Assembly (NCBI RefSeq): GCF_900103715.1
Contig: NZ_FNHL01000003.1
Coordinates: 124,001-188,000, forward strand
Reading direction: 5' to 3'
Length of the DNA: 64,000 bases
DNA from: Halogranum gelatinilyticum
GTDB taxonomy: Archaea > Halobacteriota > Halobacteria > Halobacteriales > Haloferacaceae
This document shows, in pieces, positions 42,287 through 56,074 of the stretch. Position 1 is the first letter of the stretch. Each line of letters opens with the position of its first letter. The notes below the pieces were generated by a model. It worked only from the letters and a program-made list of their open reading frames with translations, had not been told where the DNA came from and ran no database searches. The translations under genes were made by a program, and so were the position numbers.

Positions 42287-42640
42287 GTGACTCACAGGTG
42301 GCTCTCGCTGTCGGAAACGCCGTTCGACAGGGACGAGTTCGTCGCGCTCTGGATTCTCGCGACGACCACGTACGGCGTCGGCGACACGGTGACCACCATC
42401 GCACTCATCTACTTCGTCCCGGCCATCTCCGAGGGCAACGCCGTCGTCTCGGCCGCCGTGGACGCCTTCGGACAGGCCGGTCTCGTCGGCCTGAAACTGA
42501 CCGCCTTCTTCGTCTGTCTCGTCGTCAGCCTCGACGCCGCTCACGACGGCAGTAGACGCTGGTACTACCTGCCACCCGTCGTACTGACGCTCCTCGGGGC
42601 GTTCGTGACGGTCTACAACGTCCGGCTGCTGTTGGGCTGA
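42287..42640 (+). CDS. Small membrane protein, paralogue of the one at 52155
   Basis: 117 aa, GTG start that corresponds exactly to the ATG of the paralogue. A TATA-like CATTATG lies about 30 nt upstream. Four helices: about 17-45 (LATTTYGVGDTVTTIALIYFV), 50-68, 70-88 and 93-115. The first two helices carry the longest identical blocks. About three quarters of residues are identical to the product of 52155-52508. I recognise no named family. It flanks the SipW-type locus on the left as its twin lies inside on the right. Confidence 0.8.
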   Translation: MTHRWLSLSETPFDRDEFVALWILATTTYGVGDTVTTIALIYFVPAISEGNAVVSAAVDAFGQAGLVGLKLTAFFVCLVVSLDAAHDGSRRWYYLPPVVLTLLGAFVTVYNVRLLLG

Positions 42641-42747: not shown

Positions 42748-43341
42748 TTAGCCGCTATTCGGTTCCGGTGTCGCCGTCGGTTCTGGCGTGGCCGTCGGTT
42801 CGGGCGTCGCCGTTGCCTCTGGCGTTGCCGTCGACTCTGGTGTCGTGGTCGACTCCGGCGTGGCCTTCGGTTCTGGCGTAGCCGTCGCCTCAGGCGTCGT
42901 GGTCGTCGGTTCCGGGGTCGCCGTCGTCTCGGGCGTCGTCGTCGATTCTGGTGTCGTGGTGGTTGATTCCGGCGTCGTCGTCGCCTCTGGCGTTGCTGTC
43001 GACTCTGGCGTCGCCGTCGCCTCAGGCGTCGTGGTCGTTGGTTCCGGCGTCGCCGTCGACTCGGACGGAGACGACTCGTTCTTCGCGTCCTGAGTCGGCT
43101 CGCCGTCGGAGTCTGTCGGCCCGTCGGGTGACTCGTCCGCCGAACTCGGCGCGGGACCACCCGCCGACGAGGCCGCCAGTCCGCTGGCAGTCGACGGGGC
43201 GTCGTTGCCCGCGACGGTCAACGAGACCTCGGCCGTCTCCACGTCGAAGAGCGCGGCGGCGGTGAACCCCCCCGATAGCGTCGTGAAGAACACGAGACCG
43301 ACCAGTGCCAGCGACGACAGTCGCCGGTCAGGCGTCCGCAT
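42748..43341 (-). CDS. Exported SipW-type protein with Thr/Pro/Glu repeat stalk
   Basis: 197 aa. A hydrophobic signal (LSSLALVGLVFFTTLSGGFTAAALF) leads into DVETAEVSLTVAGNDAP, the SipW/TasA-type cleavage-and-strand pattern; unlike its relatives it lacks a clean twin-arginine start (DRRLSSL). From about residue 85 it is a low-complexity stalk of five- and six-residue units (TPEAT, TPEST, TPEPT), typical of O-glycosylated cell-surface spacers, ending NSG. The start overlaps the signal peptidase stop by 14 bp and has GGAGGAGG upstream, so it is translationally coupled and probably that peptidase's substrate. Confidence 0.78.
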   Translation of the reverse strand: MRTPDRRLSSLALVGLVFFTTLSGGFTAAALFDVETAEVSLTVAGNDAPSTASGLAASSAGGPAPSSADESPDGPTDSDGEPTQDAKNESSPSESTATPEPTTTTPEATATPESTATPEATTTPESTTTTPESTTTPETTATPEPTTTTPEATATPEPKATPESTTTPESTATPEATATPEPTATPEPTATPEPNSG

Positions 43342-44365
43342 CGTCCTCCTCCCAGAAGTCCTCGGTGTCGGCGACGTGCGCGACGTCCGCAGACTCGGCT
43401 GGGTCGGTCCCGCCGTCGGTGAGACCCTGGCCGCCCCCCGACGGCTCGGGTGGGGTCTCTCTCGTCGACGACGTCGGCTCGGTACTCCCGGCCGGCCCGG
43501 CCGCGTAGTAGAGTCCACAGAGCAGGAGTGTCGACGCGCCGGTCCCGGCGACGACGGCGACGGACCAGCCCTCGGTCAGCTGGGTCGCGACCCAGACGCT
43601 GTACGCGGTAAAGGCCGCGAGCGCGACGATGGCGAGCCGGATGTCCGTCCGCGAGATGCTGTATCCCGAGGCGACTTCGTCCGCTTCGTCGGAGACGGTC
43701 GAGGGAGCACTCGGTGCCGCCACCGGGTCGGCGGCCGTGTCGTCCGCGTCGGACGCGACAGCGAGCGTGACGTCGGTCTGCGCAGTGTGCTCGGTGTGTT
43801 CCGTGTGCTCGGCGACGGGCGTCTCCGCACCGTCGGCGTCACCGGCCGCCTCGTCACCGGACGACCGGCCGCGGACGCTCGTGGCGACGAGCCAGACCTC
43901 GTTCAGGACGAACAGCGCGATGGGTGCGACGACGAGCGCGGCGAAGCCCGCGTCGGTGTTGACGAACTGGACCGCGTAGCCGATGTACGGGATGGTCAGC
44001 ATCACGCGGCCGACGAGCCGGTCCGGCGTCACCGGCTGGGGGTCGGGGTCCTCGTTGTTGTCGCCTTTCGTCCAGTAGCGGACGCCGTCTGCGGTCTCTT
44101 CGACCTCGGTGACGCGGTGGGTCGTCGGCACCGACTCGCCGCCGCGCGTGAACGTGATGACGTCGCCGCTGACGACGGCCGCGGGTGCGACCGACTCGAC
44201 GACGACGGCGTCGCCGGGGTTGATGTTCGGCTGCATACTGCCCGTCAGGACGACGTAACTCTGCTCGCCGCCGACGACCTCTGGTACGCCGTAGACGACG
44301 AACGGGGAGACCGCGGCGACGAGGATGAGCAACCCGAGGATCCGTGCGAGACGTCCGGTGTTCAT
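43328..44365 (-). CDS. Signal peptidase I, ER/archaeal type (SipW-like), long C-terminus
   Basis: 345 aa. One helix (about 6-28), then the S26 motifs SYVVLTGSMQPNINPGD (catalytic S43), GDVITFTRG, TTHRVTEVE (H83 in place of the bacterial Lys) and YWTKGDNNEDPDP (D102). The catalytic domain ends with a helix about 150-165. The remaining half is an acidic, Ala/Thr-rich linker and two helices (about 252-290). The Ser-His-Asp set is typical of SipW and Sec11. It overlaps its neighbours on both sides (ATGA with the 85-aa frame, 14 bp with the stalk protein), so it lies inside an operon of secreted proteins. Confidence 0.92.
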   Translation of the reverse strand: MNTGRLARILGLLILVAAVSPFVVYGVPEVVGGEQSYVVLTGSMQPNINPGDAVVVESVAPAAVVSGDVITFTRGGESVPTTHRVTEVEETADGVRYWTKGDNNEDPDPQPVTPDRLVGRVMLTIPYIGYAVQFVNTDAGFAALVVAPIALFVLNEVWLVATSVRGRSSGDEAAGDADGAETPVAEHTEHTEHTAQTDVTLAVASDADDTAADPVAAPSAPSTVSDEADEVASGYSISRTDIRLAIVALAAFTAYSVWVATQLTEGWSVAVVAGTGASTLLLCGLYYAAGPAGSTEPTSSTRETPPEPSGGGQGLTDGGTDPAESADVAHVADTEDFWEEDDADA

Positions 44366-44620: not shown

Positions 44621-45205
44621 TTACTCACACTGTGATGCTTGGAAGTGGACCGCGATTTCGGGTGACTCGCCCGCGTGGCCGTCGTCGGTGACGCGGAGCG
44701 CGAGCTCCAGCGCGACGACCTCGTCGGCTCGACAGCCGCTCCAGAGCGGGAGCGTGCCGACCTCGGCGAGGGCCGTCCAGTCGCTCGCGGCGGCGACCGT
44801 CGAGTCGCCGACCGACGACGGCTCGACGCGGAGGTCGATGTCGTCCGCAATCGGGCCTTTCGGTGCGTCGAGCGTCAGCGTCCCCGCGGCGGGGATGTCG
44901 GGGACGGCGAGGGCGACGGTCACGCTCCGAACGTCGCCAGTGCCCAGCTCACCCACGTCGAGCGCGAGCGGCCCGTCGGTGAACGACGACGGGAAGGAGC
45001 CGGACTGTTCGGGGACGGCCGTCCCGTCGGCAGAGAGCGCGAACCGGAGGTCGAACTGGCCGGAGGCGAGCGTCACTGGCAGACGTTCGCTGTCGAACAG
45101 CGTGCCGTACGCGCCAGCACCGCCGCCGAGACCGAGACAGCCGACCGCGCCGAGACCGGCGAGAAGCCGTCGGCGTGAAAGCCCGTCGGCGGAACCGTCA
45201 GTCAC
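44621..45205 (-). CDS. Secreted SipW/TasA-type protein 1
   Basis: 194 aa, GTG start. LSRRRLLAGLGAVG is a twin-arginine-like start followed by a Gly-rich hydrophobic stretch and GAYGTLFDSERLPVTLASGQFDL, the SipW-type signal plus first strand of the mature domain. A beta-rich mature part follows, ending in EIAVHFQASQCE. It is shorter than its relatives and lacks the NE-Q-x-D tail motif. GGAGG lies 6 nt before the GTG, and a 32-codon ATG frame precedes and overlaps it (GTGA). It is the first sizable gene of the operon that contains the signal peptidase. Confidence 0.78.
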   Translation of the reverse strand: MTDGSADGLSRRRLLAGLGAVGCLGLGGGAGAYGTLFDSERLPVTLASGQFDLRFALSADGTAVPEQSGSFPSSFTDGPLALDVGELGTGDVRSVTVALAVPDIPAAGTLTLDAPKGPIADDIDLRVEPSSVGDSTVAAASDWTALAEVGTLPLWSGCRADEVVALELALRVTDDGHAGESPEIAVHFQASQCE

Positions 45206-45300
45206 GGCTGTCCTCCGCCGTCGGGGCCGTCGCGTCCGCCGTGTGGGGCGTCGCTCGGCCCGTTGCGTCCACCGTTCGAAGCCACGCTCTCCGTCTCCAT
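45202..45300 (-). CDS. Possible 32-codon leader ORF before SipW-type protein 1 (GTGA overlap)
   Basis: ATG at 45300, stop 45204-45202 inside the GTGA of the next start. The peptide is Gly/Asp/Pro-rich. A TATA-like GATTAGTTATC lies 27-30 nt upstream of this ATG, which points to a leaderless transcript beginning at or next to the mini-frame rather than at the GTG. This is the clearest of the leader frames in the window. Confidence 0.45.
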   Translation of the reverse strand: METESVASNGGRNGPSDAPHGGRDGPDGGGQP

Positions 45301-45376
45301 CGGTTCACTCCACCACTGGAACGGGGATAACTAATCGCGCGTTCACAGCGCGCAATCGGCCAATGTATCGGCGCAA

Positions 45377-46138
45377 TCATGCGTTGTCCTCCGCCAGACA
45401 CTCCTCGGCGAAGACATCGAGACTGAACGTCGCACTGTCACCCTGTACGACGTTGCCCACGTCCTCGTCGATAGCCCAGGTCATCGTCAGCGGGATCGTC
45501 GTGCCCGCTTCGAGACACGGCTGGCCGTCGCCTGCGTCCGGCGCGAGCGCGACGCCGTCGGCGAGGGCGGCGGCAACTTCTGCGAGCGTCCCCTCCGCGT
45601 CGGGGGCGACGAGCGGTTCTGTGAGGTCGTGGATGCCGTTCTGCCCGCCGGCGGCGTCGACACCGAGGATACCGGTGTCGTATCGGAGGGATACGTCGAT
45701 GGACTCGGCGAGTTCGCCGTCGTCCGGCGTGTCGTCGCCGGCGGTCACTTCGGGTTCCGTCCGGCCGTTCTCGGCGGTGTCGGTCAGGTCGAGCGCGAGC
45801 GAGAGCCGAGCGGTCCTCGCGGTGTCGCCGACCAGTTCGGCGAGCACCGTGAGCGACCCGTGGTCCCCCGGCAGGGCATTGTCGAGCGCGACGACCGGGC
45901 CGTCGGTCGCGTCGCCGGTCGTCTCGGTCGTCTCGGCTCTGACAGCGCCGTTGTAGGTCTCGCGCCAGCCGACCCGGAGGTCGAGGCCGCCGTCGACCTG
46001 GTGGGTCTGCTGGCTCGTGAGTTCGACCGGCTCGAAGCCGAAGGTCGCTCGGCCGACGGCCGTCCCGCCGTACAAGAGGCTGAAGCCGCCGAGTCCGGCC
46101 AGGAGCTGTCGACGGGAGGGGGTGATGTCGTGGGTCAT
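45377..46138 (-). CDS. Secreted SipW/TasA-type protein 2
   Basis: 253 aa. PSRRQLLAGLGGFSLLYGG is twin-arginine-like, followed by the mature beta-domain (QVDGGLDLRVGWRE, DNALPGDHGSLTVLAEL, ALDLTDTAENGRTEPEV) and the shared tail TWAIDEDVGNVVQGDSATFSLDVF with EEC. The signal segment lacks the YF-x-D motif of the others. The start at 46138 is preceded by a T-arm-like RNA element. It is the last gene of the minus-strand series 50989-45377. Confidence 0.83.
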   Translation of the reverse strand: MTHDITPSRRQLLAGLGGFSLLYGGTAVGRATFGFEPVELTSQQTHQVDGGLDLRVGWRETYNGAVRAETTETTGDATDGPVVALDNALPGDHGSLTVLAELVGDTARTARLSLALDLTDTAENGRTEPEVTAGDDTPDDGELAESIDVSLRYDTGILGVDAAGGQNGIHDLTEPLVAPDAEGTLAEVAAALADGVALAPDAGDGQPCLEAGTTIPLTMTWAIDEDVGNVVQGDSATFSLDVFAEECLAEDNA

Positions 46139-46155
46139 GGCGTTCCCGTGTGGGA

Positions 46156-46218
46156 AACCTGCTGGCGGAGTCGAACCGCCGTGGCGACGGGAGCGTCGCC
46201 GGGACACCGGTGCAGGTC
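46156..46218 (-). other. tRNA T-arm/acceptor-like structure in gap, copy 1
   Basis: Minus-strand RNA order: acceptor-like 5' strand GACCUGC (46218-46212), a 7-bp hairpin GGCGACG/CGUCGCC with 4-nt loop (46200-46183), a T-arm-like hairpin GGCGG-UUCGACU-CCGCC (46180-46164), one A, then acceptor-like 3' strand GCAGGUU (46162-46156). The acceptor stem has six Watson-Crick pairs and one G-U. It lies 18 nt before the ATG at 46138. Confidence 0.55.
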
Positions 46219-46245
46219 GGATTCTGCTGGTCGTGCGGGCGGACG

Positions 46246-47604
46246 CTACCGAATCCCTCCGAATCCGCCGCTGCTTCCTCCACTGCCACTGTTGCCGTTG
46301 TTCCCACCGTTGCCGCTGTTTCCGCTGTTACCTCCATTGCTATCGTTGCCGCCGTTTCCACCATTTCCACCGCTTCCACCACTGCCTCCGTTGCCGCCGT
46401 TGCCGCTGTTCCCGCTGTTTCCACCATTGCTGCCACTGCCGCCGTCCCCGCTATCGTCGCTGTCTTCGGAATCGTCAGGGACGAAATCGCCGTTGTAGTT
46501 GTACTTCGCGTACTGGAACAGACCGCTGTTGCCGAGCGGCGCGTTCTCACTCTGGCCGTCAGCGACGGGGTCACACTCGTCGAAGACGACGGTGCCCGCG
46601 GTCGCTGGCGGCGAGAGGTCGACCGTCTGCCAGCACTGCGCGCCCTTGACGACGATGCGGTCGACCGGGTCGTCGCTCGCCCAGTCAAAGCCGATGGGTT
46701 CGTTCTCTTCCTTGTACTGGACGTTGCTGAACGCGACGTCACCCGACAGCTCCTCGTCGGTGCCGAAGGCGACGAAGCTGATGGCGGGGGCGTCGTGCTC
46801 CTCTGGCGGTTCGTCCGGCGGCTCCTCGGTGTCACCGCCGCCCGCGCAGGGCGACCGGGTGCCGTCGTTGTGGCGACACTGGAACGCCGAGAACGCGACG
46901 TCGACGCCGACGGTGTCGGTCTGGACCTCGTTACCCGTCTCGAAGGGGAGTTCCCAGTCGAGACAGAGCGCGGGGTTGACGACGCCGTCGGGAGCCTCGT
47001 AGTCCGACCCAGCGTAGCAGACCTGCTCGCCCGCGACGGCGGTCTCGTCGCCGGTGCCGTCGAGCGGCAGGCCGCCAGCGATAGCGTCGAGCACGTCCGC
47101 GAGCGACCCCGAGGCGATGGTCGCGAGGAGTTCGCCGTCCGCGTCGCAGTAGCCGAGCGTCGCCTGCAACGCGTCGGCGAGTTCGCCGGTCTCCGTGGAG
47201 TCGTCGGCGGCGTGGTTCAGCTCCGGTTCGGGCTGGCCGTTCTCGTCGTTCGCGGTGAGCCGGGTGCAGAGCCAGAGATACGCCGGGTTGCCCGTGAGGT
47301 CGAGGTCGAAGCGGAGCCGACCCGAGTCGCCCGGCTTCACGTCGGTCAGTTCGAGCGCGACCGCGGTGGACCCGTCGGCGACGCCCTCGACCACGACGGG
47401 CGTCTCGCCTGCTCCGTCGTAGACCGACCGGACGGCGACAGCGAGGTCCAGACGGCCGCCAACGAGCGTGTTGTCGGTGAACTCCTCGCGGTCCGAGAGG
47501 AGGGCAGTCGTGGCGAAGCCCGTCGCAGAGGAGGCCGTGCCGACGGTGGCCAGCCCGGCCAAGAGCCGTCGGCGCGAGAGTCCGAACGTGTCGTCTGTCT
47601 TCAT
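46246..47604 (-). CDS. Secreted SipW/TasA-type protein 3 with Gly/Asn/Ser-rich tail
   Basis: 452 aa. GLSRRRLLAGLATVG twin-arginine start, SipW-type segment TTALLSDREEFTDNTLVGG, then the TasA/camelysin-like domain with LTDVKPGDSGRLRFDLDLTGNPAYLW, LTANDENGQPEPE and the tail WELPFETGNEVQTDTVGVDVAF followed by QCRHNDGT. A second beta-rich domain (about 285-385) follows, then a low-complexity tail of Gly, Asn and Ser (about 385-452). The tail could form an extended or adhesive segment. Cys residues (Q-C-R, C-Y, C-D) might form disulfides. A T-arm-like element precedes the start. Confidence 0.85.
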   Translation of the reverse strand: MKTDDTFGLSRRRLLAGLATVGTASSATGFATTALLSDREEFTDNTLVGGRLDLAVAVRSVYDGAGETPVVVEGVADGSTAVALELTDVKPGDSGRLRFDLDLTGNPAYLWLCTRLTANDENGQPEPELNHAADDSTETGELADALQATLGYCDADGELLATIASGSLADVLDAIAGGLPLDGTGDETAVAGEQVCYAGSDYEAPDGVVNPALCLDWELPFETGNEVQTDTVGVDVAFSAFQCRHNDGTRSPCAGGGDTEEPPDEPPEEHDAPAISFVAFGTDEELSGDVAFSNVQYKEENEPIGFDWASDDPVDRIVVKGAQCWQTVDLSPPATAGTVVFDECDPVADGQSENAPLGNSGLFQYAKYNYNGDFVPDDSEDSDDSGDGGSGSNGGNSGNSGNGGNGGSGGSGGNGGNGGNDSNGGNSGNSGNGGNNGNSGSGGSSGGFGGIR

Positions 47605-47610
47605 GTGAGG

Positions 47611-47651
47611 CCCACTGGTGGAGTCGAACCACCACGGAACACCGGTGTGGG
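47611..47651 (-). other. tRNA T-arm/acceptor-like structure in gap, copy 2
   Basis: Minus-strand RNA: CCCAC (47651-47647), a spacer that includes the word shared with copy 1, GGUGG-UUCGACU-CCACC (47633-47617), one A, then GUGGG (47615-47611). The T-arm stem differs from copies 1 and 3 by a compensating C-to-U and G-to-A change. The acceptor-like stem is 5 bp and unrelated in sequence to copies 1 and 3. It lies 7 nt before the ATG at 47604. Confidence 0.55.
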
Positions 47652-47696
47652 GGGAATGCGAAGCGTCACCGCCGAGAGGTGAGAGGGACGAAGTGG

Positions 47697-49538
47697 TTAG
47701 TCGGCCTGCAGTGGGTTCTCGTTGGTCTCGTTGTGGCGACACTGGACCGCGCCGAACCGCAGCCCGAAGGTCAGCTCGTCGGTCTGTGCGAGGTTGAGCG
47801 TCTCGTAGTCGATGTCGCCGTAGCGCGCCGACACCTGGTCCGCGAAGGTCGCCTCGTCCTCGTCGTCCGGCGTCTGCCACGGCAGCGTCGAGAACTCGGC
47901 GGGCGTCTTCGGGAGATACCACTCGATACCGAGACAGTAGACGCCGGGGTCGACACAGGTCGCGTCGGCCGGGTCGGGAATCTCGAACGGCTCCGCCCGC
48001 GGGTCGAACGGCTGGCCGCCTTCGAGCAGGTCGATGAGACCGGCGAACGAGCCACGGTAGAAGGGGCTCTCCGCGCCGCCGGAGATGCTGGCAGCGACGT
48101 CGGTGTAAGCGGCCTCCAGGTTCGTCCCCGACACCGACAGCGACTCGACGTCGTAGAACGACGACCCGTCACTGCCAGTCGCAATCGTGTTGAGCAGCGC
48201 GTCCTCGGCGTTGGGACCGATGGCGATGGAACTGATCTGCTGACCGACGGTCTTGGCGTCGGTCGCCTCCTGAACCGCGTTGCCGGGGTCCTGGTCGTCG
48301 CCGCCGTCCGACAGCAGGACGATGGCTTGGTTGGCCGCCGGGTCGGACACGTTCGAGAGGAGGTCGCTGGCTGCACTGATGCCCGCGCTGATGAACGTCC
48401 CCGTCTTGCCCGCGCTGCCCTCGGAGGCGGCGATCTCCTCGCGGAGGTCGTCGAGCGTGTCGTTGACGAGCGCGGAGTCGTCGGAGTCGACGAGTGCCAC
48501 GTCGCGCACGGCATCTCGGGGGTTGCCGTTCAGGTCGATGTCCTGGCCCTCGGTCGTCCCGTAGAAGACGACACCGATGCGGACGTCGGCGTTCGGCAGC
48601 AAGGCGTTGAGCTGCGTGACGAACTCCTTCGTCGCCTCCTCGACGACGTCGATGCGGTAGAGGTCGTTGTCGTTGTCCTTGTCGACGCCGCGGAGGGCGT
48701 TGCCGTTCGCGGCCTGCGTGCCGTCGAAGTCGACTTCGCCGCCGCGGTTCGGGTAGAGCATCGACCCCGAGACGTCGATGGCGAGGACGATGTCGGCCTC
48801 GCTCGTCTCGGCGTCCAGGCGGTTGTTGCAGTTGGTGTCGTACCACGCCTCGACCCACATGAGGTCGTCGAGGTCGCCGTCGGCGGTGCCGTCTGAATCG
48901 TCGTAGGTGCCGTCCGCCGCGTCTTCCGGCTCGACGATGCCCTCGTCGCTGTCGACCTCGGCCATCCCCTCGAACCAGAGATACGCCGGGTTACCGCAGT
49001 GGTGGAGGCTGATGGTCATCTCGCCGGAGTCGCCGGGCTTGACGTCCGGAAGGTCGAACATCGTGGCCTCGAAGCCGTCGACGAGCCCAGCGAATCCCAG
49101 GTCGTCGCTGTCGATCGGCTCGTACATCCCGTCGCAGTCGACGCCCTTCGTCACGTCGCCCCAGTCGTTCTCCGAGTAGACCTGACCCTGTGCGCCAGGG
49201 TTGCCGGTCGTCTCGTATCGTAAGTCAGGAATCTGGCTGAGGACGTACATCGGCTCGTCGGTGTCGGGGACGCGATCGACCGACGCCGGCGAGTCGTAGT
49301 TGATACCGGTGTTGCCGTTCGACATCGAGTCGAAGGCGACCTCGGGACCGGTCGTGTACGTCGAGCGGTAGTCGAGTCGGAGGTTCAACTCGCCAGCCGT
49401 GAGGCTGTTGCCCTCGAAGGACTCGGTGTCGTTGAAGTAGGCGGTCGTGCCGAGACCCGCGCCGGCCGAGGCGACACCGACGGTGCCGAGGCCAGCCAGG
49501 AGGGTTCGTCGTGAGATGTTGAGTCTGTCGTCGGTCAT
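47697..49538 (-). CDS. Secreted SipW/TasA-type protein with inserted von Willebrand A domain
   Basis: 613 aa. ISRRTLLAGLGTVG twin-arginine start, SipW-type segment YFNDTESFEGNSLTAGELNL, and the TasA-like first half with DVKPGDSGEMTISLHHCGNPAYLW. A VWA domain (about 248-465) is inserted: IVLAIDVSGSM gives MIDAS D255-S257-S259, the Thr is in KTGTFISAG, and the Asp is in IVLLSDGGDD. The chain then returns to the TasA-like tail (CLGIEWYLPKTP... FGLRFGAVQCRHN). VWA domains bind ligands through a metal ion, so a tip or adhesin role is plausible. It is flanked by related genes in one series. Confidence 0.88.
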   Translation of the reverse strand: MTDDRLNISRRTLLAGLGTVGVASAGAGLGTTAYFNDTESFEGNSLTAGELNLRLDYRSTYTTGPEVAFDSMSNGNTGINYDSPASVDRVPDTDEPMYVLSQIPDLRYETTGNPGAQGQVYSENDWGDVTKGVDCDGMYEPIDSDDLGFAGLVDGFEATMFDLPDVKPGDSGEMTISLHHCGNPAYLWFEGMAEVDSDEGIVEPEDAADGTYDDSDGTADGDLDDLMWVEAWYDTNCNNRLDAETSEADIVLAIDVSGSMLYPNRGGEVDFDGTQAANGNALRGVDKDNDNDLYRIDVVEEATKEFVTQLNALLPNADVRIGVVFYGTTEGQDIDLNGNPRDAVRDVALVDSDDSALVNDTLDDLREEIAASEGSAGKTGTFISAGISAASDLLSNVSDPAANQAIVLLSDGGDDQDPGNAVQEATDAKTVGQQISSIAIGPNAEDALLNTIATGSDGSSFYDVESLSVSGTNLEAAYTDVAASISGGAESPFYRGSFAGLIDLLEGGQPFDPRAEPFEIPDPADATCVDPGVYCLGIEWYLPKTPAEFSTLPWQTPDDEDEATFADQVSARYGDIDYETLNLAQTDELTFGLRFGAVQCRHNETNENPLQAD

Positions 49539-49557
49539 GGTACTGTCCCTCTCGGGA

Positions 49558-49598
49558 ATCCCACCGGCGGAGTCGAACCGCCGTGCTCCAAATGGGAT
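49558..49598 (-). other. tRNA T-arm/acceptor-like structure in gap, copy 3
   Basis: Minus-strand RNA: AUCCCA (49598-49593), a 10-nt spacer, GGCGG-UUCGACU-CCGCC (49582-49566; extends to 6 bp with C-G), GG, then UGGGAU (49563-49558). The T-arm equals copy 1. The 6-bp acceptor-like stem has its own sequence. It lies 19 nt before the ATG at 49538. Confidence 0.55.
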
Positions 49599-49615
49599 AG
49601 TTACTGCAGAGAAAA

Positions 49616-50989
49616 CTACGGACTATACGTCGTGACGATGTAGTTACCGCTACCCGTGGAGTTGGTCCCCGGGTAGATCGGGTTCGTTGCTGGGTCGTCA
49701 GCGTTGATCACTGCGCGACTGTCAGGGTAATTGAACGCATCTACCTGAACGCGGTAGTTGTCGCCCGGGTTGGGCATTGCACTGTTGTCTACAGCGACCC
49801 ACAGGACGTTTCCAGAGTGACTCGCAAACAGGATTGGGTTCGACACGTCACTCGGGTTCTGGAACATCCCCGTCTGATCTTTCTCCCAGACTGGGTTTCC
49901 ACCGCTGGTGATGACTTCTGAGTATCCCGTGTCGGTTCCAGACGGGAGTTGACTGTGCCCCGGTTGCCAGATAACCTGCCAGTCAGCAGTCCCATCGTCG
50001 TCGCTGTCGACGGCGAGGATATTGTTCATGTAGTCAAAGCTGTCAGCAACGTCGGTGATCTTGAACAACGTCTGAGACGTCCCGTACGCGACGTCAAGCG
50101 TCAGGTGACCAGACTCATCAGCCGCGTAGTTACTGTCAGCGTCATACTGCCCCGAGACGAAACTGTCATCGACGAAGGGGTTCGCCGTTCCGTCGTTGTG
50201 CCGTGACTGCACGGCGTAGAAGGTCAGGTCGAACTCGACGGAGTCGGTCTGGACCTCGTTGCCGACCTCGGTCGGCAGTTCCCACGCAAACGCGAGACAC
50301 TTACCCGAGAAGTCCTGTTCGGGGGTGCCCGGGAACGGCTCTCGATCCGCCGTACTGGAGTCGTTGTCTAGTGGAATGCCAGCTTGAAGCGCTGCAAGCA
50401 CCTCGCGGAGGCTGCCCTCGAAGACGAGTTCCGCGTCACCCGCCACTGGGATCGACTCGTTCTCGCTCGGACGGCCCTGGTCGCCCGGGACGTAGCCGTC
50501 GTCGACGCAGTAGAGAACGGCTTCGATGGCGTCGGCGAGTTCGCCCTCGCCATCGATGGGCGAAGAGGACTCGGTGGTGTTGTTCGGGTCGGCGTCCGCT
50601 TCGGGTTCGTTGACGGTGTTCTCGTCGTTCGCGGTGAGTTCGCCACCCGCCCAGATGTAGCCGGGGTTGTCCACGAGCGAGAAGCAGAACGTCCCGTAGC
50701 TGTAGTCGCCGGGCTTCACGTCGGTCAGCTGCTGGCTGACCCCGTTCTCGCCGTTGATGACGACGGGTCCGAAGGTCTCGCCGCCGCCGTTGGCTTCTGC
50801 TTGGTACTCGTAGACCGTCGCCTGCACTGCGAGGTCGAGCGAGCCGGCGGTCAGCGTGTTGTCGGTGAACGATTCGGTGTCGTTGAAGTACGCGGTCGTA
50901 CCGATTCCAGCACCCGCAGACGCGAGGCCGATGGTTCCGAGACCGGCCAGGACGTTGCGGCGCGAGAGGTTGAGTTTCTTGTCTGCCAT
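49616..50989 (-). CDS. Secreted SipW/TasA-type protein 4
   Basis: 457 aa. NLSRRNVLAGLGTIG twin-arginine start, SipW-type segment YFNDTESFTDNTLTAGSLDL, TasA-like domain with LTDVKPGDYSYGTFCFSL, NPGYIWAGGELTANDEN and the tail WELPTEVGNEVQTDSVEFDLTFYAVQSRHND. A C-terminal beta-rich domain (about 275-457) with Thr/Ser/Asn and Asp-rich strands follows. It heads the minus-strand series that continues with the VWA protein. Its promoter has a TATA-like CTAATACCG about 50-60 nt before the ATG, so a leader of about 30 nt is expected. GC is lower than in most of the window. Confidence 0.85.
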   Translation of the reverse strand: MADKKLNLSRRNVLAGLGTIGLASAGAGIGTTAYFNDTESFTDNTLTAGSLDLAVQATVYEYQAEANGGGETFGPVVINGENGVSQQLTDVKPGDYSYGTFCFSLVDNPGYIWAGGELTANDENTVNEPEADADPNNTTESSSPIDGEGELADAIEAVLYCVDDGYVPGDQGRPSENESIPVAGDAELVFEGSLREVLAALQAGIPLDNDSSTADREPFPGTPEQDFSGKCLAFAWELPTEVGNEVQTDSVEFDLTFYAVQSRHNDGTANPFVDDSFVSGQYDADSNYAADESGHLTLDVAYGTSQTLFKITDVADSFDYMNNILAVDSDDDGTADWQVIWQPGHSQLPSGTDTGYSEVITSGGNPVWEKDQTGMFQNPSDVSNPILFASHSGNVLWVAVDNSAMPNPGDNYRVQVDAFNYPDSRAVINADDPATNPIYPGTNSTGSGNYIVTTYSP

Positions 50990-51189
50990 TGGTGGGTGTC
51001 GCCCGGCGGGGATCCCGCTGAGCACTGTCAGAACCCTGGATTAGTACGGTATTAGGTAATAACCGAATTGACAGGTCGAACGGCGGACTTGACTCACCGC
51101 AACGGCTGGCCTCGCTCGCTCAACCGGCCACTGAGTCCGACGAACGACGAGTTTCCAGGCAACAATCGCTGGTTGTTCACCTCGAAACG

Positions 51190-51214
51190 GGCCGTTGTGA
51201 GAGCGACAACGGCC
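51190..51214. promoter_or_regulatory. 9-bp inverted repeat, candidate operator
   Basis: Perfect arms GGCCGTTGT and ACAACGGCC with a 7-nt spacer, about 80-100 bp from the plus-strand TATA box and about 140 bp from the minus-strand one. A smaller dyad with the same spacer length lies at 51161-51177. Candidate binding site for one of the two winged-helix proteins of the locus. Confidence 0.45.
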
Positions 51215-51294
51215 AGTTGCTCGCACACGACTGTCGGCTGAAATACCCGTATTCGGCGGTTTGAGTGGTATAACCACGCAATCAGCGGATGTAT

Positions 51295-51310
51295 AAGGGG
51301 GTATAGTACC
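51295..51310 (+). promoter_or_regulatory. Shared promoter motif, copy A
   Basis: AAGGGGGTATAGTACC directly after a TATA-like box (51291-51296), in the zone just upstream of the expected transcription start for the regulator gene at 51381. It equals copy B (55281-55296, minus strand) at 14 of 16 positions. Expected leader about 60 nt, unusual here. Confidence 0.55.
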
Positions 51311-51380
51311 CAGTGGTGACTACGGCGCGACCCCATCGCCGCCAACTCGCGACGACGCGCGCCACAGGAGAGACCCACTC

Positions 51381-51911
51381 ATGCAGTTGTTCACCCAGTC
51401 CGGCCTGCTCGAAACCGAGATTCACGACATCCTGCGGAACGACCGCCGCCGCGCGGTGCTCAAGCATCTCAGACAGACGACCAGCGACGTTACCCTGCGC
51501 GACCTTGCGGAGGGTATCGCCGAGATCGAAACCGGCGAGTCGCCGCCGCCCAAGAACATCCGCGAGTCGGTCTACAACTCACTGCACCAGACGCACCTCC
51601 CGAAGCTGGACGAACGCGGCGTCATCAGCTACGACAAGAACCGCAAGACCATCGCGCTCGAAGAGCGCGCTCGCGCGGTCAACATCTACATGGAGGTCGT
51701 CACGAAGTACGGCATCACCTGGGCGGACTACTACCGAGGGATCGCGACGCTGTCGCTGCTGACGGTGCTGGCCGTCACCATCGGCGTCCCCGGTCTCTCC
51801 GAGGCGGGCACACTTCTCGTGACGAGCGGCTTCCTGCTCGTCGTCGCGCTCTCGACGCTCTACCAACTGTGGACCCAACGGTGGCTGTATCTGCGGCAGC
51901 TTGTCGGGTAA
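51381..51911 (+). CDS. Winged-helix regulator with two C-terminal membrane helices (DUF7344-like)
   Basis: 176 aa. The N-terminal half matches DUF7344-type haloarchaeal HTH proteins: EIHDILRNDRRRAVLKHLR, LRDLAEGIAEIETGE, SVYNSLHQTHLPKLDERGVISYD. Two hydrophobic helices follow (about 117-137 and 140-160), so DNA binding may be tethered to the membrane. CAGGAGAG lies 8-15 nt before the ATG. It lies between the two blocks of secreted proteins and shares a promoter motif with one of them, making it a candidate regulator of the locus. Confidence 0.85.
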   Translation: MQLFTQSGLLETEIHDILRNDRRRAVLKHLRQTTSDVTLRDLAEGIAEIETGESPPPKNIRESVYNSLHQTHLPKLDERGVISYDKNRKTIALEERARAVNIYMEVVTKYGITWADYYRGIATLSLLTVLAVTIGVPGLSEAGTLLVTSGFLLVVALSTLYQLWTQRWLYLRQLVG

Positions 51912-52154
51912 GTCTCGGTCAGTACCGGAGGTAATGGTCCACTTTGTCGGACGAACGGCACCTTTTCGCGGCGCGAATTCGCGCTTTTTCGTCAGTTTCG
52001 TGGCTCCGCTCAGCGACAGCCTTGGCATCCGGACCCTACCGAACCGAAGGCTCGCTGTTTCGACTGTACTGGCCAGTTCATCACCACAGGAACCCGGCTC
52101 GGATATGTCGGCAGAACATAAGCTATCATTGTTGTCGAGTTGTTCGAATAACGT

Positions 52155-52508
52155 ATGTCCGACACGTGGCTCTCTCTGAGAGAGACGCCTTTCGACGACG
52201 AGGAGTTCGTCACGCTGTGGGTTCTCGCGACGACCACGTACGGCGTCGGCGACATCGTGACGACCATCGCACTCATCTACTTCAGTCCGACCGTCACCGA
52301 GGGGAACGTCGTCGTCGCGACTGCCGTCGGCGCGTTTGGACAGGCAGGCCTCGTCGGACTGAAACTCGGTGCCTTCCTGATTTGTCTCGTGGTGAGCGTC
52401 GACGCCGCCCACGACGGGAGCAGGAGTTGGTACTACCTGCCACCGGTTGGGCTGACGCTTCTCGGGACAACCGTGACGGTATACAACATCCAGTTGATGC
52501 TGATGTGA
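52155..52508 (+). CDS. Small membrane protein, paralogue of the one at 42287
   Basis: 117 aa, four predicted helices. Same length as, and about three quarters identical to, the product of 42287-42640; LATTTYGVGD and TTIALIYF blocks are shared. ATG start with a TATA-like ACATAAGC about 27 nt upstream. Function unknown. The pair marks the left and inner right sides of the main secreted-protein block. Confidence 0.82.
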   Translation: MSDTWLSLRETPFDDEEFVTLWVLATTTYGVGDIVTTIALIYFSPTVTEGNVVVATAVGAFGQAGLVGLKLGAFLICLVVSVDAAHDGSRSWYYLPPVGLTLLGTTVTVYNIQLMLM

Positions 52509-52531
52509 GAGAGATATCGGCGGCGGAGTAA

Positions 52532-53707
52532 CTACGCTGTCCGCAGTCCGAGCGTCACGTCGAACGAGACCTGGTCGCTCTGTATCTCGTTCCCGACATC
52601 GGCCGGAAGTCGCCACTCGACGACGAGATGTGCGTGCTCGCCAGCCTCGAGGCCGACCGAACCCAACGGATCGCCCGTCGCAAGCGTCGACAGCGACACG
52701 TAGTTCGGCCCCGACAGGAGGCCGTTCCCGGAGCCAACGAGATACGACCGGCTTCCGTCGCCTCGGACGAGCGCGACTCTGAGTTCGAGTGCATCTGCGA
52801 GTTCGCCGACATCGGGACTCGCGTCGACCGCTCGCTCGGGTTCGATGAGGCCGTTCTCGGCGTTGACCAGGTTCGAGACGGTGATTGAGAGGGTCGCGTC
52901 GTCGGTGCCGTCGTTACTGACCGTCACGGCGGAGTCACCTGCCGATCCGGGGGCGGCACCCTCGACTGCCAACAGTGGTGTCTCGGCAGCACCGCCGACG
53001 TCGAGCGCGACCGCCGTTTCGGCCGTGTTCGTCACGTCGAACTCGTACGGTTCGACGACGGCGACGCGGTCGAGTTCATCGTCGCCATCGTAGAGGACGG
53101 CCGTGACCGAGACGTAGCCGCGACGGGTCCGAGTCGAAGCGTCGGCGGGATTGGCGAATCCGGGCGTCGTGGCTTCCGTGTAGAACAACCGCGTCGAATC
53201 GAACGCCTGACTGAGAGAGAGTGAACGGTCGTTACTCGCTTCGACGGTCGTACGCCTCCGTTCGGTCCACTCCTCGTTCGGTGTCCACGTGTGGGCGACG
53301 AGCGTGACTCGGTCGGCAGGGACATCCCACTCGACGGAGCCGCTGAGTTCCCCAGCCAGCGGGGGGACAATACCCTCGGCGTTGGTCACGTCGTCGGGGT
53401 CGGTGGGTGTGAAGGCGACGTCGAGGCAGCCGCAGTTTGGTTCGGTAGTGGTTGCTGCGTTCTCGGGTTGAGAGGCTTCGTCAGCATTGTTATGGCTCTG
53501 GCTTCGGGTTGGCGTTGATGTAGTTGATGATGGCTCTGGAGCGTGTGGTGTCTCATTGGCCCCAGTTGAAATGTGTTCTTGGCTAACAGGAACAGTGCCT
53601 CCGAACAACCCTACCCCAGTCGCTGCGATGGTTACGAAGAGTGCAACGCATATGATACTGATTTTTCGAATAGTAATCCAATTGTCTATTGATTCACTGT
53701 CAATCAT
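52532..53707 (-). CDS. Exported protein sharing the C-terminal tail motif of the SipW set
   Basis: 391 aa. One hydrophobic helix near the N-terminus (ISIICVALFVTIAATGVGLFGG, about 15-36) without twin Arg, then a Ser/Thr/Pro/Asn linker, a Cys pair (NCGCL), and beta-rich domains. The C-terminus WRLPADVGNEIQSDQVSFDVTL matches the shared tail of the TasA-type proteins, and ITVSNLVNAENGLIEPE resembles their 'ANDEN...EPE' block. It is the last gene of the three-gene minus series from 55212 with a 27-bp spacer; its own TATA-like TTTTATGA may add transcription. Confidence 0.75.
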   Translation of the reverse strand: MIDSESIDNWITIRKISIICVALFVTIAATGVGLFGGTVPVSQEHISTGANETPHAPEPSSTTSTPTRSQSHNNADEASQPENAATTTEPNCGCLDVAFTPTDPDDVTNAEGIVPPLAGELSGSVEWDVPADRVTLVAHTWTPNEEWTERRRTTVEASNDRSLSLSQAFDSTRLFYTEATTPGFANPADASTRTRRGYVSVTAVLYDGDDELDRVAVVEPYEFDVTNTAETAVALDVGGAAETPLLAVEGAAPGSAGDSAVTVSNDGTDDATLSITVSNLVNAENGLIEPERAVDASPDVGELADALELRVALVRGDGSRSYLVGSGNGLLSGPNYVSLSTLATGDPLGSVGLEAGEHAHLVVEWRLPADVGNEIQSDQVSFDVTLGLRTA

Positions 53708-53734
53708 AAAAGAACAAACGGGGTTTGAAGCGGT

Positions 53735-54478
53735 CTACTGGCCAGCCTGCTTCAGAGCGAACGTGATATCCGTCCGCAAGACGTCACCTTGATAGTCGTT
53801 TGGGATGTTCTCGTTCATCTTCAGATCGATGTTGAAGATAGTCTCCTCGGGCGAATCTGGGGGTGTATGCCCCAACTTCGGTGGATCGAATTCGTCTAAG
53901 ACCGCTTCGTTGGTATCTGGTGCAGCCAAATCTGCGAGGGACACAAAATCGTCTGGTGCAGTCGCATCCTTCTGGATGGTGTTTCCGTTGTGTGACTCGT
54001 CAGGTTGACTGTCGGTGACCAGATTCACAATATCTCCATCTGTTGTGGTGTAGGTGAGTGACTTCACCTCAATCCACTTCGCCATGTTACCTCCTGGATT
54101 AGTGTCTGCATCAGGACCACTGTCTCCAGGGGTATCTGGCGTTCCATCATTATTTTCGTCGATATCTCCGTCTCTGTCTTCGTAAGTGGTATTGCTGAAG
54201 TCGATTTCGAGGTGATCCAGTCTCCTCGTCCCCGTATTGAACAGGGCTAACTCGAGAGCGTAGGGATTCTCAGTGGTCTCACCCGGTTTCCAGTCGTACG
54301 AGTAGGAGGTACCGAACGTACCATCATGCATCCCTAAGTCAACTGTGCCGGCTTTGATTTGGTTATCTACAGAACTCTCTGAGTCAGTGAAGTACGCGAA
54401 CGTACCAGCACCAGTTCCTGCACTGACCGCGCCGGTCGCTCCAAGAGCACTCAACAATCGCCGACGCGTAAGTTCCAT
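53735..54478 (-). CDS. Secreted SipW/TasA-type protein 5
   Basis: 247 aa. LTRRRLLSALGATG twin-arginine start and the SipW-type segment GTFAYFTDSESSVDNQIKAGTVDLG. The mature part has the TasA-like first strands, an Asp/Asn-rich loop (about 108-130) and the tail DYQGDVLRTDITFALK. GC is clearly lower than in the housekeeping genes (many A/T third positions), which suggests different codon history. It follows secreted protein 6 by 17 bp and is co-transcribed. Confidence 0.85.
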   Translation of the reverse strand: MELTRRRLLSALGATGAVSAGTGAGTFAYFTDSESSVDNQIKAGTVDLGMHDGTFGTSYSYDWKPGETTENPYALELALFNTGTRRLDHLEIDFSNTTYEDRDGDIDENNDGTPDTPGDSGPDADTNPGGNMAKWIEVKSLTYTTTDGDIVNLVTDSQPDESHNGNTIQKDATAPDDFVSLADLAAPDTNEAVLDEFDPPKLGHTPPDSPEETIFNIDLKMNENIPNDYQGDVLRTDITFALKQAGQ

Positions 54479-54495
54479 TGACTGAACCCTCCTAT

Positions 54496-55212
54496 TTAGG
54501 CCTGAGTCGGGGAAGTGGTGTTGTCAGCAGACTGCGTGACGGTGAAGGCAACCTCAAAGTCAACCCCGTCTCCTTGTGCTTCGTTGCCAACGTCAGCAGC
54601 AAGTTTGACCTCTAAGTCGAGGGTGATTGTATCATCAGTATTTAAGGTAGCGTAACCCTTGACCGTTTCCATCGCGTCGTTGAGTTCGCTCAGGTCAACG
54701 TACGTTTCACCATCTCTAGCTTCTTCCGCGTCCGCATCATCGGTCGCATTAATATTCCCCTTGATCGGTGAAGATGGGGAATCATCCGCTAGGAGGTCGT
54801 CCGTTTCCTTAGTCCCCCCTCTGTCATGAGTAATCGATGCTGACACGACCTCTACCCTGTCTGCAAACTCATCTGCAGAAAGGTCACTACCATTGGTAGC
54901 TGCCTCTGATTCACTCGGCTCACTGAGAGCCGTATCGATGTCAAGACTGACACCATCGATACTCCCATCGTACGTCACAGAGACAGTCTTTGATTCGGCC
55001 GATCCACCTGGTTTCAGATTTTCAATATTTGCAGAGAAACCGCTCGGGCTATTAAGGTCAACCGTCCCTGCTGAAATATTGTTCCCCGAGCTCGTCTCGT
55101 TGTCACTGAAGTACGCCATCGTCCCTGCGCCCGTGGCTGCGCCAGCGGCGCCGATCGTTGCGAGTCCGCCCAGTACCTTGCGTCGCGTGAGTTCGACTCT
55201 CTTGTCAGACAT
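54496..55212 (-). CDS. Secreted SipW/TasA-type protein 6
   Basis: 238 aa. LTRRKVLGGLATIG twin-arginine start, SipW-type segment GTMAYFSDNETSSGNNISAGTVDL, a TasA-like domain (FSANIENLKPGGSAESKTVSV) and the tail AADVGNEAQGDGVDFEVAF. The size and order resemble TasA/CalY and archaeal bundling-pilus subunits, so this is a candidate main subunit. A leader of about 60 nt with GAGGT 11 nt before the ATG and a hairpin (GTGGG-N6-CCCAC) precedes it. Low GC as in the downstream gene. First gene of a three-gene operon with the shared 16-bp promoter motif. Confidence 0.86.
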   Translation of the reverse strand: MSDKRVELTRRKVLGGLATIGAAGAATGAGTMAYFSDNETSSGNNISAGTVDLNSPSGFSANIENLKPGGSAESKTVSVTYDGSIDGVSLDIDTALSEPSESEAATNGSDLSADEFADRVEVVSASITHDRGGTKETDDLLADDSPSSPIKGNINATDDADAEEARDGETYVDLSELNDAMETVKGYATLNTDDTITLDLEVKLAADVGNEAQGDGVDFEVAFTVTQSADNTTSPTQA

Positions 55213-55280
55213 TGGGTTGTCTTACCTCGTTCACGTGTGCATCCGTGGGGTCGCTCCCACCTAGCACGCAGTTGCTCCAA

Positions 55281-55296
55281 GGCACCATACCCCCTT
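55281..55296 (-). promoter_or_regulatory. Shared promoter motif, copy B
   Basis: On the minus strand AAGGGGGTATGGTGCC, directly after a TATA-like TATACAAAA, before the operon starting with secreted protein 6 (ATG 55212). Matches copy A at 51295-51310 in 14 of 16 bases, with both differences G-to-A transitions. Confidence 0.55.
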
Positions 55297-55337
55297 TTGT
55301 ATATGCCGATTGACGTGATGACAAACCCGGGCAGACC

Positions 55338-55399
55338 AGAGACAAACCGCGGTTGAACGTCTCTCGGAGGGAGTCAGAAACCCCTCTAATCACCGATTA
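55338..55399. promoter_or_regulatory. Dyads in the divergent gap before the second regulator
   Basis: AGAGAC...GTCTCT arms enclose the palindrome AACCGCGGTT (55338-55364), and TAATC-ACC-GATTA lies at 55387-55399. They sit between the promoters of the secreted protein 6 operon (left) and the regulator at 55487 (right; TATA-like region near 55455-55465). Candidate operators; no regulator is proven. Confidence 0.35.
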
Positions 55400-55486
55400 A
55401 AGACCGTCGAACGCTGTTTTCGGCCGACACCGTGGACCCTAAACAGCCAATTAGATAAGGTGTAATCTATCAAGAATTTCTATAGA

Positions 55487-56074
55487 ATGAGCATGAAGCA
55501 GGTCGGGGCGGATACCGAGACGCTTCCACGGGAGGTCGTCTTCGATATGCTGAGTAGTCAGCGACGACGACACACGCTGCACTACCTCTTACAGCACGAC
55601 CGACCCGTCGAACTTCGCGAGCTGTCGCGGCAGGTGGCAGCGTGGGAGAACGGCATCGAGCCCGTCGAGGTCACGTCCGACCAGCGGAAGAACGTCTACA
55701 CCGCGCTCAGGCAGGCACACCTCCCGCGGATGGACCGAGCGGGAATCGTCGACTTCGACCCGAACCGCGCGGAGATTGAACTCCGCGAGGAGGCAAGTGA
55801 TCTGCAGTTGTACCTCGAAGTCATTCCGGGGAACGACATCCCGTGGAGCGACTACTATCTCGGTCTGAGCGTCTTCTCGGGATTGCTCATTGGTGCCGCG
55901 GAGTTCGGTGTCTTCCCGTTCGGTGAAATTCAAGTCGTAGCCTGGACGGGACTCGTCGTCTTCCTTTTCTTCGCGTCTGCGGCCACGCACGCGTACATGA
56001 ACCGGCAGATGCGTCTGGGGCAAGAAGGCCCACCACCGGGCTACGAACAGGAACTCCAACAGGAGGACGAGTGA
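55487..56074 (+). CDS. Second winged-helix regulator with membrane helices (DUF7344-like)
   Basis: 195 aa. LPREVVFDMLSSQRRRHTLHYLL, ELRELSRQVAAWENG, VYTALRQAHLPRMDRAGIVDFD align with the regulator at 51381. Two helices follow (about 125-142 and 148-168) and then a charged tail (EQELQQEDE). The start may be ATG 55487 or ATG 55493. The ATG of the signal peptidase follows the stop by one base, so regulator, peptidase and exported protein form one operon. Confidence 0.85.
   Translation: MSMKQVGADTETLPREVVFDMLSSQRRRHTLHYLLQHDRPVELRELSRQVAAWENGIEPVEVTSDQRKNVYTALRQAHLPRMDRAGIVDFDPNRAEIELREEASDLQLYLEVIPGNDIPWSDYYLGLSVFSGLLIGAAEFGVFPFGEIQVVAWTGLVVFLFFASAATHAYMNRQMRLGQEGPPPGYEQELQQEDE

Follow-up and report, generated by a model that had tools for sequence, protein, structure and literature searches.

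We analysed a window of 64,000 nucleotides from the haloarchaeon Halogranum gelatinilyticum (GCF_900103715.1, contig NZ_FNHL01000003.1, positions 124,001 to 188,000), in which a gene cluster for putative surface fibres lies at 42.3–57.4 kb. The genome is 3.77 Mb in size, and among named organisms the searches place haloarchaea, for example Haloarcula and Halorhabdus, nearest to it. The cluster comprises two SipW-type signal peptidase genes, each sharing its 3′ end with the start of a partner gene, seven genes whose products start with a twin-arginine (RR) signal, an eighth gene with a TasA domain and no twin arginine, and two DUF7344 genes. On our best reading the cluster is made up of two modules that would build TasA-like surface fibres, and either module has its own SipW-type peptidase, partner, RR subunits and DUF7344 protein. 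Features are listed by window coordinate, with scores for the SipW-signal model TIGR04088 (NCBIfam, cut-off 19 bits), the Pfam TasA/camelysin family PF12389 (cut-off 22.5), the archaeal signal peptidase I model TIGR02228 (cut-off 51.85), a profile of 12 sequences (A1) and a custom 35-position signal model from whose building the n-region was left out.

42748..43341, minus strand: sipW-coupled partner, 197 residues, hydrophobic signal lacking the Tat (twin-arginine translocation) motif, followed by a tail of Thr/Pro/Glu repeats; 14-base overlap of its start with the end of sipW; no I, L, V, F, M, W, Y or C after position 55
43328..44365, minus strand: SipW-type signal peptidase I, second copy, 345 residues (TGSMQP, TTHRV); TIGR02228 107.2 bits (C3:167898-168329 of the genome)
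44621..45205, minus strand: RR protein, 194 residues (GTG start), SRRRLL and degenerate segment GAYGTLFDSE; hhalign against A1 95.4%, E 2e-8; custom signal model E 2e-4
45377..46138, minus strand: RR protein, 253 residues, SRRQLL, no recognisable SipW segment; hhalign against A1 97.7%, E 3e-12; custom signal model not matched
46246..47604, minus strand: RR subunit, 452 residues, SRRRLL and degenerate segment ATTALLSD; hhalign against A1 99.2%, E 2e-19; custom signal model E 1e-9
47697..49538, minus strand: long RR subunit with VWA domain, 613 residues, SRRTLL and GLGTTA/YFND; TIGR04088 31.6 bits; VWA PF00092 37.8 bits
49616..50989, minus strand: long RR subunit, 457 residues, SRRNVL and GIGTTA/YFND; TIGR04088 28.8 bits; hhalign against A1 99.6%, E 2e-24; PF12389 21.7 bits (just under the cut-off)
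51381..51911, plus strand: DUF7344 protein, divergent from 49616; PF24035 105.9 bits
52532..53707, minus strand: eighth TasA-domain protein, 391 residues, no twin arginine, no SipW segment; hhalign against A1 97.6%, E 3e-12, residues 245-389; no TIGR04088 match
53735..54478, minus strand: TasA/camelysin-like subunit, 247 residues, TRRRLL and GAGTFA/YFTD; PF12389 36.0 bits, TIGR04088 34.3 bits
54496..55212, minus strand: TasA/camelysin-like subunit, 238 residues, TRRKVL and GAGTMA/YFSD; PF12389 44.9 bits, TIGR04088 32.0 bits; AlphaFold model best matched by TasA
55487..56074, plus strand: DUF7344 protein, directly upstream of sipW; PF24035 104.0 bits
56076..56642, plus strand: SipW-type signal peptidase I, 188 residues (SSSMAP, THRV); TIGR02228 105.7 bits
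56642..57364, plus strand: sipW-coupled partner, 240 residues, RQR signal and AAFSD segment ahead of repeats rich in Cys, Ser and Thr; TIGR04088 24.1 bits; alignment with the subunit profile limited to residues 1-60

The consensus of Tat signals is S/T-R-R-x-φ-L. All seven RR proteins of the window, named here by their first coordinate, carry it ahead of an uncharged hydrophobic region (h-region), as the initial annotation of this interval had claimed when it ascribed [ST]-R-R-x-[LV]-L to seven members. Its further statement that most of them have a YFND, YFTD or YFSD segment needs qualifying: the segment is exact in four (47697, 49616, 53735 and 54496), degenerate in two and lacking in 45377, so that 'most' means four to six of seven. 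The same four proteins pass TIGR04088, and 44621, 45377 and 46246 fall under its cut-off. Using the custom model, we also picked up 46246 and, weakly, 44621; 45377 was again unmatched. RR proteins near sipW that have kept the Tat motif and lost the SipW segment form a sub-class, to which 45377-46138 and a second gene of this genome (L272, C2:64049-64963) belong. The eighth protein (52532-53707), which lies within the annotated interval and had been overlooked, has its TasA-like domain at the C-terminus and a plain hydrophobic N-terminus, and is possibly a variant that is anchored or exported by the general secretory (Sec) pathway. Three TatC-like matches are present in the genome.

The relationship of the subunits to TasA was supported by sequence and, less strongly, by structure. 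PF12389 was passed by 54496 and 53735; besides 49616, 47697 also stayed under the cut-off (14.9 bits), and the other three RR proteins were unmatched. Searching the PDB with A1, we obtained Bacillus subtilis TasA (5of1, E 2.8e-8, positions 40-193 of 196; 8aur, E 3.7e-8), a match that spans almost the whole mature length. The haloarchaeal F-S-D is aligned to F-N-D of TasA, the N-terminus of the fibre structure, so that the 'cleavage segment' lines up with the beginning of the TasA donor strand. TasA was also the best match of the AlphaFold model of 54496 (mean predicted local distance difference test (pLDDT) score 76, predicted template modelling score 0.68) in both structure comparisons, the match to the crystal forms covering residues 52-231 of the model; most of the signal was modelled at pLDDT <50, so the model is uninformative on the signal itself. 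Foldseek returned 8aur with E 6.6e-6 but a template modelling score of 0.39, and VIA aligned 138 residues to 5of2 (Z 8.4, root-mean-square deviation 3.5) with a Z modestly above that of unrelated rows; sequence evidence therefore weighs more than the fold match. Of the remaining five RR proteins, hhalign places four (49616, 46246, 45377 and 44621) in the TasA-like family. The 613-residue member 47697 is tied to it only through its SipW segment (TIGR04088) and had no sequence match in the PDB; its VWA domain (47697-49538) possibly makes it an adhesin on the fibre. On sequence and modelling grounds we thus identify the subunits as TasA/camelysin relatives, with fibre formation by donor-strand exchange as a prediction only.

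Both peptidases exceed the TIGR02228 cut-off, and two further, weaker matches to this model occur in the genome. With the Pfam S26 model, the peptidase at 43328 reached 15.9 bits (cut-off 22.9). The Bacillus SipW equivalog NF046067 gave 107.2 bits, short of its cut-off of 190. The coupled partners have no clean twin arginine, in agreement with the initial annotation: 56642 has RQR, and the RR of the partner starting at 43341 (PDRRLSSLA) stands outside the motif context. The latter was unmatched by the custom signal model, and 56642 passed TIGR04088 and failed the TapA model TIGR04087 (16.1 bits, cut-off 80). A third partner of this genome, beside sipW at C2:62.8-64.1 kb, is built alike: it lacks RR and has a tail of Thr/Glu/Pro repeats.

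To place these signals in a wider context, we relied on TIGR04088; because this model spans h-region and cleavage segment but leaves out the n-region, it samples signals regardless of RR. Of 294 genomes in the phylum sample, 41 had a match. We read all 140 matches, of which 101 came from 24 haloarchaeal genomes and 39 from the other 17 genomes. Of the haloarchaeal signals, 93 of 101 carried the motif, compared with a mean of 6.1 and a maximum of 14 when the n-regions were shuffled 2000 times, a null that ignores the relatedness of the sequences. All eight signals without it were located directly 3′ of a sipW gene. Among the signals not coupled in this way, the motif was therefore present in 93/93, and its strict form, [ST]RRx[φ][LF], in 91/93. 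We then took the rule that signals carry RR except immediately 3′ of sipW and applied it, with the n-region-blind custom model, to 40 hold-out loci from 40 haloarchaeal genomes absent from the phylum sample. These loci were centred on good TIGR04088 matches and so are not a random draw. Uncoupled signals had the loose motif in 97 and the strict motif in 92 of 100 cases, coupled ones in one and none of nine, respectively. Two of the three uncoupled exceptions (L124 and L129) are genes that look like partners near or overlapping sipW; the third is L160.

Outside the haloarchaea the pattern was not seen. Non-haloarchaeal signals of the same phylum showed the loose motif in 1/39 and the strict motif in 0/39 cases; TatC was present in 13 of the 17 genomes. 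Similarly, among named relatives found by scanning a collection of 84,980 species, the motif occurred in 10/10 haloarchaeal loci and in none of 69 non-haloarchaeal loci, of which 66 rows were read properly (L168, L174 and L207 were misparsed). In Bacillus-type relatives the homologous position is occupied by KK, and TatC was found in 9/10 tested bacterial genomes of this set. In an actinobacterial control (30 of 40 matches), the loose motif was found in 7/30 signals, the strict form in 0/30. We therefore dropped the loose motif as a discriminator between groups and use the strict form for cross-group claims.

The counterpart of this distribution is the sipW-coupled gene. In 52 of 61 haloarchaeal sipW rows, an overlapping or abutting open reading frame with an N-terminal hydrophobic segment was detected. 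Two were set aside as artefacts (L099|1099, a weak false sipW match with a loose RR, and L141|2669, a fragment of the same sipW), and the remaining 50 begin mostly 4 bases before the sipW end. None of these 50 carries the strict motif. Nine rows had no coupled reading frame by the rule used; in L129 a partner-like gene overlaps the sipW start, and in L124 one lies ∼1.1 kb upstream. The haloarchaeal partners form a large class, in which a SipW-type or plain signal is followed by a long acidic or Ser/Thr/Pro/Glu-rich tail, and in 36/50 more than 70% of the residues after position 60 are S, T, P, E, D, G or N. For 47 of the 50 partners and 92 of 93 subunits, the mature part was long enough to count hydrophobic residues, which on average made up a fraction of 0.091 in the partners and 0.277 in the RR members. 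The fraction was <20% in 38/47 partners and in 0/92 RR members; for the two window partners it was 0% and 21%. As far as composition tells, which is also the only basis for calling the partners disordered, signal type tracks the foldedness of the cargo. The signals themselves differ as well, the best 16-residue stretch of the h-region having a hydrophobicity of 1.56 in RR members, 2.56 in sipW-coupled partners and 2.50 in non-haloarchaeal SipW signals.

The motif with its conservation, its split according to gene position beside sipW, homology to TasA and the contrast in foldedness are results of computation. From them we infer Tat use, Sec use, SipW cleavage, nucleation and polymerisation: folded protomers would leave by Tat and a disordered nucleator or anchor by Sec, and one SipW-type peptidase would free both donor strands (probability roughly 0.72). 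The RR subunits would fold in the saline cytoplasm into a β-sandwich whose core is independent of their own N-terminal strand, be recognised by Tat via S/T-R-R-x-φ-L and cross the membrane folded. In the TasA structure, the donor strand is formed by residues 28-38 and the monomer complements itself with strand 48-61, which fills the groove (PMC9674648, as far as its available text goes), so a subunit may fold while its future donor strand is still on the signal, making folded export possible. The partner, with a more hydrophobic signal, no motif and a mostly disordered mature part, would take the Sec route. Tat proofreading is expected to refuse unfolded cargo, and a disordered partner would therefore fail as a Tat substrate. 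Both kinds of signal finish with the same SipW-type segment, and the peptidase would cut each of them outside the cell, before Y/A-F-x-D, and release the N-terminal strand that is the donor strand in TasA. The freed strand of the partner would start or anchor the fibre, as that of TapA does, and subunits would then add by donor-strand exchange. Available passages of PMC10269814 describe that the TasA signal jams Sec in E. coli because it cannot be cut by LepB, which fits the need for a dedicated peptidase accepting aromatic residues after the cut.

The initial annotation had proposed from this one locus that subunits use Tat and coupled partners use Sec. Taken as a prediction to the hold-out set, the proposal gained support as an inference from the 40 further genomes, the 50 coupled genes, position-specific conservation, the KK contrast, the h-regions and cargo foldedness. 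Whether haloarchaea in general run a two-route line for a single fibre, with self-complemented TasA-like protomers passing through Tat, a disordered nucleator or anchor through Sec, one SipW-type peptidase priming both and cytoplasmic folding dictating the route, we put at even odds. If true, this would be a donor-strand fibre made from folded, Tat-exported subunits.

Several observations weigh against Tat export of subunits that are then cut by SipW. No window protein passes the Tat-signal model TIGR01409 (NCBIfam), for which the best score was 15.3 bits (54496) at a cut-off of 16.7, a model threshold that says nothing on actual Tat use. The loose RR occurs in 5/50 sipW-coupled genes (L099, L125, L132, L146 and L150), and L160 is an uncoupled signal without the motif. 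Bacillus-type homologues with KK have an h-region mean of 1.67, close to the 1.56 of RR members, and low hydrophobicity was for this reason set aside as stand-alone proof of Tat. The sequences in the motif counts are related, and the counts do not equal independent events. Finally, 45377 combines a Tat motif with the loss of the SipW segment, and SipW may therefore not act on every RR protein.

This last point is shared by an alternative that we regard as improbable, namely that the RR proteins are Tat substrates left uncut by the sipW product, being either signal-anchored or cut by a general Sec11-type peptidase, and that the SipW-type enzyme serves the Sec partner alone. It would explain why translational coupling links sipW to the RR-less partner and not to the RR genes, and the weaker peptidase matches in the genome could supply the second enzyme. 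However, four of the seven subunits have kept the SipW-type segment homologous to that of TasA, and RR gene clusters are found near sipW in most loci examined, including a sipW match in 35/40 hold-out loci.

Quite unlikely, in our view, is a purely compositional origin of the motif, with RR as the haloarchaeal form of a Lys-rich n-region that arose by Lys-to-Arg drift in GC-rich, lysine-poor halophiles, the subunits still being Sec substrates. The KKK at the same place in Bacillus-type homologues and the loose RR of the actinobacterial signals would be expected in this case. Yet none of those seven actinobacterial signals has S/T before RR, and the coupled partners of the same haloarchaeal genomes lack the strict motif throughout. 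We inspected 191 RR signals position by position; RR is present in all of them by selection and positions +3 and +4 are limited to small residue sets, whereas the other positions are free. Position −1 was S in 128, T in 56, N in six and G in one (S/T in 184), and +4 was Leu in 188. Lys was the commonest residue at +2 (90/191), directly beside two arginines that are each written with all six Arg codons. Drift would not have spared the neighbouring Lys, which makes it an unlikely cause. RR and L14 are invariant in a family of 12 sequences that are 31-47% identical to the first of them, a window protein.

That the partner itself passes through Tat by hitch-hiking, carried along in a complex with an RR subunit, is very unlikely, because its own signal is strongly hydrophobic and it looks mostly disordered by composition, even though a donor-strand-like segment common to partner and subunits makes a complex conceivable and Tat export of heterodimers with one signal is known (PMC10924467, available part).

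The proposed export of the subunits by Tat and of the partner by Sec can be compared with known systems, as far as the available portions of the cited papers describe them. The locus resembles tapA-sipW-tasA of B. subtilis, which combines a TasA-type subunit, a SipW-type peptidase and a second protein with a SipW signal; there, too, the gene of the second protein overlaps sipW, and only the N-terminal strand is common to it and the subunit (PMC10151520, PMC9674648). Likewise, the similarity of partner 56642 to the subunit profile is confined to the first 60 residues, as TapA relates to TasA (PMC9674648). Bacillus-type subunit signals have KK in place of S/T-RR, however, and the partner differs from TapA in failing TIGR04087, sitting 3′ of sipW and consisting mostly of a low-complexity tail, so we claim only that it works like TapA. 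The sipW-calY1-bc_1280-calY2 locus of B. cereus also starts with sipW and has several camelysin-type subunits, but the available text mentions neither twin arginines nor a Tat/Sec split for it (PMC10151520). Archaeal donor-strand fibres are exemplified by the bundling pili (AbpA) of Pyrobaculum and the threads of Sulfolobus. A weak profile match was obtained to AbpX (9sj2, E 0.31), whereas the threads are described, in the accessible part of PMC9715654, as Sec-exported.

The RR signals also fit the haloarchaeal secretome, which is predicted to use Tat more than that of other archaea, the standing explanation being the folding of proteins in the cytoplasm at high salt; TasA-like fibres, SipW-type peptidases and a split within one operon are absent from the available text of this source (PMC12186497). 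The initial annotation had remarked that SipW-type peptidases are generally discussed with Sec export, a fair description, and the accessible part of a 2015 review states that cleavage of Tat signals by archaeal signal peptidase I was still to be demonstrated (PMC4343526). The combination of SipW, haloarchaea and Tat was not found in the searched literature, which left out most subscription papers; papers returned by related searches were all bacterial by title. TasA-like fibres, SipW-type peptidase and Tat are thus parts of known kinds, and what we did not find in that literature is their combination, with a split by gene position and cargo foldedness. Within a single tractable group, the system would allow tests of two questions: whether Tat signals are cut by an archaeal ER-type signal peptidase (stated to be undemonstrated in the accessible text of PMC4343526) and whether subunits of donor-strand fibres can be exported folded. 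It also offers a natural paired experiment, in which a pair of proteins from one operon has a common cleavage segment but export signals of opposite type, in keeping with how folded each cargo is.

Some features of the surrounding DNA were also recorded. A hydrophobic protein of 117 residues is encoded twice, at positions that flank or interrupt the cluster (42287-42640 and 52155-52508, both plus strand), and neither copy has a Pfam match. The G+C content falls to 0.543 at 54001-56000, compared with ∼0.66 in most of the window, over the genes that are most TasA-like; the stretch is a possible recent acquisition. A comparison of 54496 with plasmid records gave no match. Elsewhere in the genome, at C2:62.8-77 kb, C1:986-989 kb and C2:880 kb, there are more clusters of the SipW type with RR subunits, one of which (L017) has two sipW genes in tandem.

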